A DNA stretch of 64,000 nt from assembly GCF_025149465.1 (NCBI RefSeq), contig NZ_CP102275.1, positions 1,426,001 through 1,490,000 on the forward strand, in the 5' to 3' direction. The stretch's first letter is position 1, and every line of letters begins with the position of its first letter. The stretch comes from Thomasclavelia spiroformis DSM 1552 (GTDB lineage: Bacteria; Bacillota_I; Bacilli_A; Erysipelotrichales; Coprobacillaceae). The translations under genes and the position numbers were made by a program. Shown piece after piece: positions 37,680-60,659 of the stretch. A model generated the notes under the pieces. That model was not told the DNA's origin. It saw only the letters and a list, made by a program, of their open reading frames with translations, and did not search any database.

Positions 37680-38474
37680 ATGTGTAAATTACTAGATATA
37701 CCTAGATCATCATTATATTATAATCGTAATAATAAATTAAATAAGAAAAAATCCAATGATCATTATCTGACTGCTTTAGTAAAAGAAATATTTAAAAACA
37801 GTCGAAACAACTATGGTTCAAGAAAGATTAAAATAGAATTGGCTAAACTGGGCCATATTGTCAGTAAAAGAAGAATTAGACGTATTATGCAGGAAAATGG
37901 CTTAGTATCAAGCTATACAGTTAAACAGTATAAAGTACATCACGCAGCATGTAATAATGATAATATAGAAAATAGACTCAATCGTAATTTTAATCAAAAA
38001 GAGAGAATGAAGGTAGTAGTTAGTGATCTGACGTATGTTAATGTGGATGGAAAATGGAATTATATATGTCTTATGTTAGATCTATATAACAGAGAGATTG
38101 TAGGATATGCAGCCAGTAAGAATAAAAATGCCAAGTTAGTAGAAAAAGCACTCTATTCAATAAAATATGATTTACGAAAAATAGATTTGTTTCACAGTGA
38201 TCGAGGAAATGAATTCAAAAATGAAGATATTGAAAATGCATTAAAGGCATTTAATATAAACAGGTCATTAAGTGCTAAAGGATGTCCGTATGATAATGCA
38301 GTTGCTGAAGCAACATATAAAATTATAAAAACAGAGTTTGCATTTAATAAAAGGTTTGAAAGTTTTGAAGAACTGGAACTAGAATTATTTGATTATGTAA
38401 ACTGGTATAATAATGTGAGGATACATGGTTCACTTGGCTATAAGACACCAGTTGAATTTAGGATGTTCTCATAG
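37680..38474 (+). CDS. IS3 transposase OrfB (DDE integrase)
   Basis: 264 residues. HTH_21 (FKNSRNNYGSRKIKIELAKLGHIVSKRRIRRIMQENGL) is followed by the rve core with catalytic D in VVSDLTYV, D in HSDRGNEF and E in AVAEATYK, ending YNNVRIHGSLGYKTPVEF. The frame is open upstream to about 37632 (GTKINVIISNADKYPVSA), consistent with an OrfAB fusion by frameshift or with coupled translation at the orfA stop. Confidence 0.93.
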   Translation: MCKLLDIPRSSLYYNRNNKLNKKKSNDHYLTALVKEIFKNSRNNYGSRKIKIELAKLGHIVSKRRIRRIMQENGLVSSYTVKQYKVHHAACNNDNIENRLNRNFNQKERMKVVVSDLTYVNVDGKWNYICLMLDLYNREIVGYAASKNKNAKLVEKALYSIKYDLRKIDLFHSDRGNEFKNEDIENALKAFNINRSLSAKGCPYDNAVAEATYKIIKTEFAFNKRFESFEELELELFDYVNWYNNVRIHGSLGYKTPVEFRMFS

Positions 38475-45869: not shown

Positions 45870-46164
45870 TGGTATATTGAAGTTACTCATACAAAGAGTA
45901 ATAAATCTAATATACCAATTCTCCTTTCTACCTGAATTATTTGGTATCACTTCAGGTTGTGTTAAAATGTGTAATTGTGAATGTGGATTTGTATTTTTTT
46001 CCTTATTGCTTTGACTTTTCAGAAAGGATCTTACCACTTCTTTGTATCGCATTTATTATTAGTTGTATGAGTCTTTTGAATTATGAACACACCAGGTTTT
46101 TGATACCTTTGAAGTGGATCTGATTTCACAATCACAAATCATCTTAAGAAAGGAATTGATAATT
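45870..46164 (+). ncRNA. Structured non-coding region of IS110, candidate bridge RNA
   Basis: Nearly 300 bases of the IS110 left end without a credible gene but with strong pairings. TGGTATATT (45870-45878) pairs with AATATACCA (45909-45917) and encloses TTACTC/GAGTAA (45883-45888, 45896-45901). A separate hairpin CCTGAA (45931-45936)/TTCAGG (45951-45956) shows a 14-base loop containing GGTATC, and its complement GATACC recurs at 46102-46107. Bridge RNAs of IS110-group elements are encoded at this place. Assignment of target and donor loops is not possible without insertion-site comparison. Confidence 0.45.
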
Positions 46165-47325
46165 ATGAAACTTGTTGGAATTGACATTGCCAAATATAAA
46201 CATGCCGCTTTTATCATGGATGCTTCTACTGGCGAATCTTTATGTGATCCTTTTTTATTCAAAAACAATAAAGATGGATTTCAAAAATTTTATGACGAAC
46301 TTAATAAATACACACAAGATGAACTTTTAATCGGTATGGAAGATACCGGACACTATAACTTTGCCATTGAAAGCTGCTTATTGGCTAAAGGTTATAAAGT
46401 TGCTTTAATCAATCCTATTACCACTAAGAACCTTAGAAAAGCTTCTTTAAAAACTGTTAAAAGCGATAAAGAAGATGCTATTTTAATTACCAAAGCTCTC
46501 CTAGATAAAGATTACTATCGCATCATCTCTATTCAAGATGAGAAATTAAAGGAGGCCAAAGAATTAACGCGCTATCGTACACAATTGACAATTGAAATGA
46601 ATCGTAAGAAGAATATTCTTCAAAGACATATTGATATTGTTTTTCCTGAATTTAATACATTATTTAATAATGAATACACCATTACATATTTAAATATTTT
46701 AAGAAAATATGGTGATGCCTATACCATTGCACATACAGATATTCGTTCTTTAAGAAAATGTTTTAAATACTGTAATATCTTCTCAGCAGAAGACTTAAAA
46801 GAATTAGCTTCTAATTCTGTGGGTATTCATGATGTTTCTATTTCTTTTATCATTCAATCGGTTATTTCCAGTATTGATTTAATAAACTCTCAAATTGAAG
46901 AATTAGATAAAAAAATAGAAGAACTCGCCATCACACAAGATTCTTCTATCACATCAATACCAGGAATATCAATTATTACTGGTACTTCTATTTTAGCTGA
47001 ACTTGGTGATATAAGTAAATACTCAAATGCAGGAAAATTAATTAAATTTGCAGGTGTGAATCCATATATCAGTGAATCTGGCGAATTTTCAGCTGATAAA
47101 ACAGCCATAACCAAGAAAGGTTCTAAATATCTAAGGGCAACACTTTATCGAGTCATCATACCTGTAATACGCCACAACCCTGCATTTAATAACTACTATC
47201 ATTTAAAACGAAGTCAAGGTAAAGGACATCTTTGCGCTTTAGGTCATTGTGTAAGAAAACTTTTAAGAATCATTTATCATCTTGAAATAAATCATATTAC
47301 TTTTGATATAAATTCTCTTAAATAA
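46165..47325 (+). CDS. IS110-family DEDD transposase/recombinase
   Basis: 386 residues from the ATG at 46165 (AAGAAAGGA 8-10 nt upstream). The N-terminal RuvC-like DEDD domain shows MKLVGIDIAK (Asp7), GMEDTGHY and LKTVKSDKEDA. The C-terminal transposase_20 domain shows ITSIPGISIITGTSILAELGDISKYSNAGKLIKFAGVNPYISESGEFSADKTAITKKGSKYLRATLY, where the SESG segment should hold the nucleophilic serine. It looks intact. Such enzymes are guided by a bridge RNA to a short target. Confidence 0.95.
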   Translation: MKLVGIDIAKYKHAAFIMDASTGESLCDPFLFKNNKDGFQKFYDELNKYTQDELLIGMEDTGHYNFAIESCLLAKGYKVALINPITTKNLRKASLKTVKSDKEDAILITKALLDKDYYRIISIQDEKLKEAKELTRYRTQLTIEMNRKKNILQRHIDIVFPEFNTLFNNEYTITYLNILRKYGDAYTIAHTDIRSLRKCFKYCNIFSAEDLKELASNSVGIHDVSISFIIQSVISSIDLINSQIEELDKKIEELAITQDSSITSIPGISIITGTSILAELGDISKYSNAGKLIKFAGVNPYISESGEFSADKTAITKKGSKYLRATLYRVIIPVIRHNPAFNNYYHLKRSQGKGHLCALGHCVRKLLRIIYHLEINHITFDINSLK

Positions 47326-58282: not shown

Positions 58283-58330
58283 AAAAAAAGAACATAGTTC
58301 CCCCTACCCCAAGGTAAGTAAACTATGTTC
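58283..58330 (-). terminator. Strong terminator between loaP genes and capsule genes
   Basis: Perfect 10-bp stem gaacatagtt (58290-58299) / aactatgttc (58321-58330), an extra inner stem TACC/GGTA, and seven T residues on the minus strand (58283-58289). It lies 38 bases after the last loaP-like gene and would cut off the operon unless antiterminated. Confidence 0.92.
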
Positions 58331-58339
58331 AAAATAAAT

Positions 58340-58367
58340 CTAGAGGCGGATATACCATTCTCTCTAG
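58340..58367 (-). promoter_or_regulatory. Hairpin upstream of the capsule terminator, candidate LoaP recognition element
   Basis: ctagag/ctctag stem (58340-58345 with 58362-58367) with a 16-base loop containing GGTATATCC. It lies between the stop codon of the loaP-like gene and the terminator. LoaP proteins act through an RNA hairpin located before terminators; identity of this hairpin with that element is inference. Confidence 0.5.
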
Positions 58368-58865
58368 CTAATTTTTGCATGTTATATATAATCCTACTTT
58401 TATCCGTCTATCCATAAACGATAAATCAAGATATGCATATTGATTATGTCGATCAACTTTTACAATATTATTTTCAAATGACTTCAATGGTCCTTCAATA
58501 ATCACTGCTTTTCCATCTTGTAAATATGCTTGGGACATTCTTACAACATGATAAGCATCTAATAATAACTCAAACATCCTAATTTCCTCTTTTCTCAAAG
58601 CCAATGTTTCTTTATTAACCAATTGACCTATCACACCATTTTTCTCTTCAGCCATTTTATATAACAACGAATTAAACTCTAATTGATTCAATTCAGTTTT
58701 AACAAAAACATATCCCGTAAACATTGGTTTAATAAGATATTCTTTTGTTTTACGATGATAATATTCATACTGTGGTACAAATGCTTCAATACATTTTCTT
58801 TTATTAAGATTAAAAACAACTTGATTTTTTTTATAACTTAACGTATTTAAAACATACCAATTCAT
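58368..58865 (-). CDS. loaP: NusG-like processive antiterminator (LoaP/UpxY type), copy 1
   Basis: 165 residues: an NGN domain (MNWYVLNTLSYKKNQVVFNLNKRKCIEAFVPQYEYYHRKTKEYLIKPMFTGYVFVKTEL) and a C-terminal KOW domain (DGKAVIIEGPLKSFENNIVKVDRHNQYAYLDLSFMDRRIKVGLYI). The FVP..........PLFPGYVFV pattern marks specialised NusG paralogues. They travel with RNA polymerase and suppress termination in long polysaccharide or antibiotic operons. It overlaps copy 2 by 4 bases (ATGA) and is followed by a hairpin and a terminator, then the capsule genes. Confidence 0.9.
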   Translation of the reverse strand: MNWYVLNTLSYKKNQVVFNLNKRKCIEAFVPQYEYYHRKTKEYLIKPMFTGYVFVKTELNQLEFNSLLYKMAEEKNGVIGQLVNKETLALRKEEIRMFELLLDAYHVVRMSQAYLQDGKAVIIEGPLKSFENNIVKVDRHNQYAYLDLSFMDRRIKVGLYITCKN

Positions 58866-59377
58866 GATTTACTTATTACTTCCAAAGGAACCATGATTTT
58901 TTTATCAAAAAACTCTGTTTGTAAAGTTGCAACGCGATGATGACGATTAATCTTAACCACTAAATCATCTAACCCTAATAACGGTCCTGTATCAACAATC
59001 AATTTCTTGTCAACAATATTACCGATGGAACGTTTAATGATATGTCCTCCATTAAATAGTTTTTCCATTAAGTCTTGTTCTGTATCTTTTAATGCATAAA
59101 CACCCTCATACTCTAATAACTCTCCAAAACCTTCAATCGACTCAAAGAACTCTTTAAATTTTTTATTAAACGCTTCATTATCCATATCACTTTTAACAAA
59201 AACATAATCTGGATACAAATCCTTAATAACATAATCCTTTACACTTTTAACATTATGCCATTTTTCAATTTTAGGAATAAAAGCATCTACACCTTTTTGG
59301 CTATTAAAAAATTTAACAATTTTACTTCCTCGGTCTACTTTTGCATGAATAACATACCAATACATAACCAATTTCAT
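58862..59377 (-). CDS. loaP: NusG-like processive antiterminator (LoaP/UpxY type), copy 2
   Basis: About 170 residues: NGN (YWYVIHAKVDRGSKIVKFFNSQKGVDAFIPKIEKWHNVKSVKDYVIKDLYPDYVFVKSDM) and KOW (VDTGPLLGLDDLVVKINRHHRVATLQTEFFDKKIMVPLEV). It is clearly paralogous to copy 1 but only distantly similar. The ATG at 59377 directly abuts AAAGGA; a TTG at 59371 (6-nt spacer) or the ATG at 59365 (MYWYVIHAK, the usual family start) is likelier. It is the first gene downstream of the recombination site, so it would be the first gene read after promoter inversion. Confidence 0.9.
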   Translation of the reverse strand: MKLVMYWYVIHAKVDRGSKIVKFFNSQKGVDAFIPKIEKWHNVKSVKDYVIKDLYPDYVFVKSDMDNEAFNKKFKEFFESIEGFGELLEYEGVYALKDTEQDLMEKLFNGGHIIKRSIGNIVDKKLIVDTGPLLGLDDLVVKINRHHRVATLQTEFFDKKIMVPLEVISKS

Positions 59378-59390
59378 TCCTTTCGCTTTT

Positions 59391-59411
59391 CGCAGAACTA
59401 GCTATTCTGCG
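59391..59411 (+). repeat. Recombination site 1 of the predicted invertible segment
   Basis: CGCAGAA and TTCTGCG arms around the 7-base spacer CTAGCTA, the layout of a tyrosine-recombinase core site. Bases 59394-59411 recur as a perfect 18-bp inverted copy at 60502-60519. The stop codon of the recombinase gene (59402-59404) lies inside it. Confidence 0.85.
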
Positions 59412-60340
59412 AAAAAACTAGGCTTTTCTATCTTATTTATCTGTGTTTTTTTAAAATCGAGTGATGAATGAACATATAGATTTAATGTTGTAGATACTTT
59501 AGAATGTCCTAACATCTCTGATAATGATTTAATATCAATATTATTCATTACACAATTAGTTGCATATGTATGTCTTAAAGAATGAAAATTTGATTTAAAA
59601 TTATATAGTTTACAAATACGATGAAAACTATATTGAATACTTCTAGGATCAGAAATATTTTTACTATTAGTATAGATAAAATGTTCATCATCAATAGCAT
59701 GATGTTGATAATATTTTTTTACATATTCCATAACAAAAACAGGAATTGGAATAATTCTTTTAGATGTTGCTGTTTTTGGATCCATTAACATTAACTGTGT
59801 TTTTGTCATACTATTAGCTGGTGCTTTTAATCTTTCCACAGTTCTTTCAACTCTAATCAAATCATTTTCAAAATCAATATCTTTCCATTTTAAACCACTA
59901 AACTCCCCAATTCTTAATCCCCCATACAAAGATAATAAAATAGCTAAAGATATTGGTTCAAAATGATTAAAACAATATTTTCCTAATAACATTATTTGAT
60001 CAGATGTTAATACTTTGCAATCATTTTTCTTTTTAGCTAGTTTAATAAAATTAAAATTAGGACACTTAATTGCATATTTAGACTGTGCATATTCTAAAAT
60101 TGATTTCAATACATAACGTATTGTAGATAACGTACTTAATGAATACTTTTCTTCATTAATTTTTGTTTGAAAATAATTAATGATTATATCATCATTGATC
60201 TGTTGCAAACAATATTTACCAAAATATTGTATTAAGTGTACATTAACAACATTCTCATATTTTACATATGAAGAATACTTAACCGATAATTTTTTTAAAT
60301 ACATCCATTCCCTACTAACTACAATAAAATTTTTACTCAT
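59402..60340 (-). CDS. Tyrosine recombinase, predicted promoter invertase
   Basis: 312 residues: an N-terminal SAM-like core-binding domain (~10-95) and the integrase catalytic domain with GGLRIGE (Arg I), K near LMDPKTATSKRIIPIP, HSLRHTYATNC (HxxR) and GHSKVSTTLNLYVH (His, then the nucleophile Tyr). It lies entirely inside an inverted-repeat pair and its last codons (GCA GAA TAG) are part of the repeat, so inversion leaves the protein unchanged. GGGAGG precedes the ATG. No phage or conjugation genes are near, which argues for a dedicated switch enzyme like Mpi-type or Fim-type invertases. Confidence 0.92.
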   Translation of the reverse strand: MSKNFIVVSREWMYLKKLSVKYSSYVKYENVVNVHLIQYFGKYCLQQINDDIIINYFQTKINEEKYSLSTLSTIRYVLKSILEYAQSKYAIKCPNFNFIKLAKKKNDCKVLTSDQIMLLGKYCFNHFEPISLAILLSLYGGLRIGEFSGLKWKDIDFENDLIRVERTVERLKAPANSMTKTQLMLMDPKTATSKRIIPIPVFVMEYVKKYYQHHAIDDEHFIYTNSKNISDPRSIQYSFHRICKLYNFKSNFHSLRHTYATNCVMNNIDIKSLSEMLGHSKVSTTLNLYVHSSLDFKKTQINKIEKPSFFAE

Positions 60341-60472
60341 ATAATTGCCTCCCTTAAATATATAGTTGTATTTGAAAAAGGTAAATCGTTTATTTTAAAT
60401 ATTCGTGCTAAAAATTAGTAATAAAATGCAAATTATGTCTTTTTTTGAATTTTATCTAATATTATGTTTAAA

Positions 60473-60495
60473 TAAGTAGCTTTTTGTGCTATAAT
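60473..60495 (+). promoter_or_regulatory. Extended -10 promoter inside the invertible segment, facing right
   Basis: TGCTATAAT (60487-60495) is a perfect extended -10 element; the -35 region is weak (around 60466-60472). Expected start is in the repeat at about 60502. In this orientation it fires away from the capsule operon into the terminator at 60541-60582. After inversion it would read straight into the loaP-like genes. Confidence 0.75.
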
Positions 60496-60501
60496 TCAAA
60501 T

Positions 60502-60519
60502 CGCAGAATAGCTAGTTCT
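60502..60519 (-). repeat. Recombination site 2 of the predicted invertible segment
   Basis: cgcagaatagctagttct is the exact reverse complement of 59394-59411. The third arm of site 1 is not fully kept here (TTCTATG instead of TTCTGCG). Inverted, not direct, orientation predicts inversion of 59412-60501 (1090 bases). Confidence 0.85.
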
Positions 60520-60540
60520 ATGAAAAATTTATATAAAAGC

Positions 60541-60582
60541 AGTCATAAACAATAATTTTAATATATAGTTTATGACTTTTTT
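60541..60582 (+). terminator. Terminator just outside recombination site 2
   Basis: agtcataaac (60541-60550) / gtttatgact (60568-60577) plus T5. It would stop transcription from the promoter at 60490 in the present orientation. Confidence 0.85.
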
Positions 60583-60659
60583 GTTATATATAGATATTTT
60601 TTAGCATATTTCTATGTTATGACTTAACATTTTATATTATAACTTGTTCATATACTAAA

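Follow-up and report, generated by a model that had tools for sequence, protein, structure and literature searches.

In Bacteroides, capsular polysaccharide (CPS) loci are controlled by an invertible promoter, the antiterminator UpxY and an inhibitor, UpxZ, which acts across loci (PMC12632263, PMC7593976). In Bacillus velezensis, the antiterminator LoaP needs a leader hairpin for the read-through of terminators and counters NusA (PMC12691694). We analysed a 64,000-nucleotide stretch of the Thomasclavelia spiroformis DSM 1552 genome, referred to below as the window, in which a locus shares features with both systems. Part of its anatomy also recalls the hin system of Salmonella, where the gene of a serine recombinase lies within the segment that the enzyme inverts and a promoter reads outward from it.

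The Bacteroides UpxY/UpxZ loci are the closest parallel to a promoter inverton coupled to antitermination. They have in common with the window a promoter between inverted repeats, two regulatory genes in first position, an antiterminator of the NusG type and a long polysaccharide operon. However, the window comes from a member of the Bacillota, its recombinase is encoded inside the invertible segment whereas Bacteroides uses a single global invertase, both of its regulators are NusG/LoaP-like, and a conserved hairpin-terminator element stands behind them. For the biochemistry of these two regulators, here called A and B, the closest guide is B. velezensis LoaP (dfn/mln; PDB 8f5g), with which they share the protein family, the succession of a leader hairpin and a terminator, and a long biosynthetic operon. 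In contrast to LoaP, the window contains two diverged paralogues with scores below the cut-off, the hairpin has a GG-N3-5-CC core without a UNCG loop and lies 3' of the regulator genes, and a probable promoter inverton is present. The placement of the recombinase gene within the segment and of a promoter reading out of it is that of hin, whereas the recombinase is of the tyrosine and not the serine type and would control an antitermination module.

Each of the parts is of a known kind: an inverton, a LoaP-like antiterminator, and a leader hairpin plus terminator. The novelty lies in combining a recombinase encoded within the segment with an obligately linked pair of LoaP paralogues, an RNA outside Rfam and a natural trans version. 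No published account of an inverton with paired LoaP genes and an RNA element was found in the open literature searched, a body of work that most subscription journals lie outside. The two-layer logic of the Bacteroides capsule switch would extend to gut Bacillota with different parts, in the form of a compact, self-contained switch that includes a named, covarying RNA element.

We consider it likely that the locus is a self-contained promoter inverton that feeds LoaP-type antitermination of a surface-polysaccharide operon (Table 1). This long operon is headed by genes for LoaP-type proteins, with a conserved hairpin and a terminator behind them, and comparison with LoaP upholds the antitermination layout proposed in an earlier, sequence-only reading of the window (PMC12691694). 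The operon encodes an aminotransferase, an ATP-grasp protein, acetyltransferases, an initiating sugar transferase, glycosyltransferases and epimerases. Transposase genes of the IS110 and IS3 types are inserted within it on the opposite strand (46114-47325 and 37680-38474 of the window). A remnant of a NeuD/PglD-like gene, at about 58262-58150, lies between H2 and the first intact polysaccharide gene. Where a NeuD/PglD-like gene comes first after the element, it has an apparent ATT or ATA start and a strong ribosome-binding site in 8/8 loci (L037, L038, L041, L042, L044, L045, L050 and L065), with no ATG near the conserved start.

Table 1. Features of the locus, in window coordinates.
Feature	Position	Strand	Basis or remark
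Surface-polysaccharide operon	34156-58039	-	profile matches; extent from gene order
H2: 10-bp terminator with T7, carries conserved motif TTGGGGTAGGGGG	58283-58330	-	sequence reading, folding, motif conservation
H1: conserved hairpin, stem / bulge / G N2-3 GG N3-5 CC [GA] C / stem	58340-58367	-	comparative alignment
B: LoaP-like NusG paralogue	58368-58865	-	ORF read from sequence, profile matches
A: LoaP-like NusG paralogue	58862-59377	-	ORF read from sequence, profile matches
Proximal inverted-repeat arm, near-palindromic CGCAGAA-N7-TTCTGCG	59387-59412		overlaps recombinase 3' end
Tyrosine recombinase, 312 aa	59402-60340	-	PF00589; R..K..HSLRH..GHS..Y motifs visible
Outward promoter TTTAAA-17-TATAAT, extended -10 (TGC)	60467-60495	+	10/12 match
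Distal inverted-repeat arm (TCGCAGAATAGCTAGTTCTATGAAAA)	60501-60526		repeat search
Terminator AGTCATAAAC...GTTTATGACT-T6	60541-60583	+	just outside distal arm; would stop outward promoter here

In the first layer of the proposed switch, the tyrosine recombinase would invert the 1.1-kb segment 59387-60526, which holds its own gene and the outward promoter. In the orientation found here (OFF), transcription from this promoter would head away from the operon and end at a terminator; once the segment is inverted (ON), it would cross the repeat and enter A and B. In the second layer, the ON transcript would yield A and B and by default stop at H2. Protein B, probably together with A, would bind H1 in the nascent RNA and join RNA polymerase as LoaP does, and a polymerase carrying the antiterminator would pass H2 and the later terminators of the operon. 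A is taken here as a B-dependent co-factor or modulator. As A and B precede the terminator, expression of the operon would need both the flip and a build-up of the antiterminator. We infer segment inversion and its ON and OFF states from the anatomy of the locus, and the recruitment of B to H1 and the read-through of H2 from homology and co-conservation.

The two NusG paralogues had been described as overlapping by 4 bases, and reading the ORFs directly shows that they share ATGA. The homologues of A begin at MYWY, so that its true start is probably 59365. Both proteins match PF02357 (NusG), and for both the best profile is the LoaP model NF033641, with scores (97.8 bits for A and 102 bits for B) that fall below NCBI's curated cut-off of 125 bits. 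Scores against the UpxY family NF033644 are 36 (A) and 48 bits (B) for a cut-off of 100. The AlphaFold2 models, with a mean pLDDT of 85 for A and 89 for B, display an NGN plus KOW fold, and the C-terminal domain consists mostly of strands in both. Their best structural match is the LoaP-RNA complex 8f5g (E 4e-14 and 1.5e-14), and they are nearest to LoaP, not to NusG or RfaH. A comparison with the RNA contacts of LoaP (E40, R41, I143) places a near-invariant arginine near the loop in B and not in A, in a part of the alignment that is gapped and unsure. No UNCG hairpin with a perfect stem of 5 or more was found near the tandem or the single LoaP loci, and the core of H1 differs from the UNCG-type leader hairpin of LoaP. 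Both the scores and the missing UNCG loop place the pair outside LoaP sensu stricto; the best reading remains that the proteins work in a LoaP-like manner.

Homologous loci were sought in 60 related genomes and then read individually. A is followed by B in 31 loci, 18 of which have the identical 4-base overlap; several genomes carry more than one such locus, and T. spiroformis itself has a second pair (L038). A tandem LoaP pair, which the sequence-only reading had called unusual, is therefore common locally. A tree of 77 proteins of the NusG family resolves A and B as separate clades (SH-aLRT 98% and 99%, respectively), which adjoin the family's ordinary single LoaPs and lie apart from the NusG, Gammaproteobacterial and Bacteroidota sequences. 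The two co-diverge, with a Mantel distance correlation r of 0.74 against a maximum of 0.34 in 5000 permutations. B occurs without A at 866 kb in the same genome and at L069, L071 and L072, and may do so at L070, where the start of the contig leaves scant space for A; among the loci read in the related genomes, A was never seen without B. A search of 195 genomes of the phylum with the LoaP model gave matches that were mostly housekeeping NusG and was set aside. The orphan B at 866 kb (L039:5488-7436) has its RNA element, and a group II intron (RF02001/RF01998), whose ORF encodes 472 aa, follows no more than about 125 nt downstream.

The same distribution bears on the role of A. Rather than assisting B, A could be an inhibitor or competitor: B would antiterminate at its own H1 and A would block the B proteins of other loci, so that cells would produce a single polysaccharide at any one time. 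In line with this idea, individual genomes carry several A-B loci, B occurs alone with the RNA element whereas A was not seen alone, and UpxZ, encoded beside UpxY, inhibits in trans across loci. However, A has the complete NGN+KOW make-up of a LoaP-like protein, whereas UpxZ is, to our knowledge, not a NusG homologue, and strict co-inheritance with B is equally expected of a partner. An inhibitory A is a serious but rather unlikely alternative to A acting together with B.

Both RNA structures that had been read behind the two genes are present. The 6-bp-stem hairpin CTAGAG...CTCTAG occupies exactly 58340-58367, from the base after the stop codon of B, and in the perfect 10-bp terminator GAACATAGTT (58330-58321) pairs with AACTATGTTC (58299-58290) ahead of T7 (58289-58283). 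A simple terminator scan missed H2 because its loop is too long. The 139-nt H1/H2 region folds with a z of -2.8 relative to shuffles. When H1 was aligned by hand to the structure, 89.7% of the cells in 18 distinct stems were paired, compared with 60.5 ± 4.8% (maximum 77%) in 2000 arm shuffles. Among 32 H1/H2 copies in a model-fitted alignment, which follows the structure and so leans towards pairing, 93.5% of the cells are paired and double changes are seen at 13 of 22 pairs; for each of the five covariation measures, the value lies above those of 500/500 shuffles. The sequence-only reading had allowed for the outcome that covariation analysis would show no conserved hairpin; what emerged is a hairpin that covaries strongly.

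The region 3' of B contains GAAYAT in 35 of 36 loci, GGGTARGGG in 29 and a T-run in 34, and GGGTARGGG is found in 0/3654 background windows. H1/H2 lies behind B in nearly all loci. In the single 2.53-Mb contig of the T. spiroformis genome, the RNA search model has two copies, each directly 3' of a B gene; across the family it has copies in 16 of 43 genomes and 7 of 20 genera, and a further weak match (G005:C11), within a coding frame, is probably due to chance. No Rfam match to the H1/H2 region was obtained at E 0.5. There is one such hairpin per locus, associated with B, which speaks against the earlier suggestion that the two proteins recognise different hairpins. H1 is the probable recruitment RNA of LoaP-B. 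The H2 stem sequence is unusually conserved for a plain terminator, and the two-layer switch does not explain why. GGGGTAGGGGG resembles the ops sequence of RfaH, which we note as a lead only. A second class of H2 is found downstream of B at L038, L045, L050-L052, L054, L055, L059, L060 and L062. It retains GAACATA and GGGGTARGGGG but folds differently, and most of its members have a separate ACAGG-CCTGT terminator. In several of them an ATGTTC past the T-run could pair with GAACAT.

The element also occurs apart from its linked protein. In T. cocleata the B gene has decayed and the RNA element is kept behind the remnant. In genome G029, seven polysaccharide loci bear the element and have no linked NusG genes; a related recombinase lies upstream in 6 of the 7, and none was found upstream of the element at L149. 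The single LoaP of the B clade in G029 is encoded at L150, unlinked and in a non-polysaccharide neighbourhood. Seven elements without a linked NusG gene and one unlinked B-type LoaP suggest that this LoaP acts in trans on an RNA target carried in cis. These observations fit H1/H2 as the putative RNA target of B-type proteins, in cis or in trans. They also count against the proposal that the segment inverts but that H1/H2 is an ordinary terminator or processing hairpin, with A and B acting elsewhere or on general elongation. H2 does consist of a stem and a T-run, and the stem in the window would be expected to terminate by itself. However, H1 and GGGTARGGG are conserved far past what this function needs, and the element outlasts A-B in G029 and the decay of B in T. 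cocleata, which makes the proposal improbable.

The natural cis and trans versions offer a test ground for how LoaP-type factors locate their targets. A wider reading, which we put forward tentatively as a possibility short of even odds, is that the locus represents a new system, in which obligately paired LoaP paralogues would act jointly on a new RNA class (H1 and a GGGTARGGG-bearing H2), a recombinase-encoding promoter inverton would serve as the ON switch at several polysaccharide loci per genome, and one genus would have been rewired to a single trans LoaP for seven loci.

The upstream layer of the proposed switch, in which inverted repeats enclose a recombinase gene and a promoter directed outward, was absent from the sequence-only reading. 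The 26-nt arms that bound the 1.1-kb segment are 92% complementary; 16 loci have comparable inverted repeats on either side of the recombinase, and its homologues lie upstream of A-B in most loci. In the window, the promoter lies between the inverted repeats as in a promoter inverton, with 6 bp separating it from the repeat half-site, and is directed away from the operon. An extended -10 promoter ending 5-6 bp before the half-site, directed outward and located at the 5' side of the recombinase, is seen in 13 loci, and the mean promoter score over 16 loci is 8.03, compared with 5.82 ± 0.20 in shuffles. In 13 of the 16 loci, the window among them, the recombinase gene runs in the same direction as A-B and the promoter faces the other way. 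Ten of these 13 have a strong terminator no more than about 110 nt past the repeat, a feature of 4% of background windows. L049, L061 and L066 have the recombinase in the reverse direction, with its 5' side towards A; of their promoters, those of L049 and L061 are clear and that of L066 is weak. Orientation was compared using one genome per species, and the two orientations are thus seen between species only.

No terminator was seen between the recombinase and A-B, so that in the present orientation transcription of the recombinase could continue across the proximal repeat into A-B, and the OFF state may be leaky. This gap, the co-directional arrangement in 13 of the 16 loci and the broken recombinase frame of L049 would suit a fixed or decaying mobile insertion with A-B transcribed from the recombinase promoter, but such an insertion is hardly probable, as homologous loci show both orientations, the repeats match almost perfectly, and both the outward promoter and the outside terminator are conserved. 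At L049 (4509-5441), the recombinase frame is broken into two pieces and the promoter faces A-B, which could reflect a locked-ON locus or a sequencing error.
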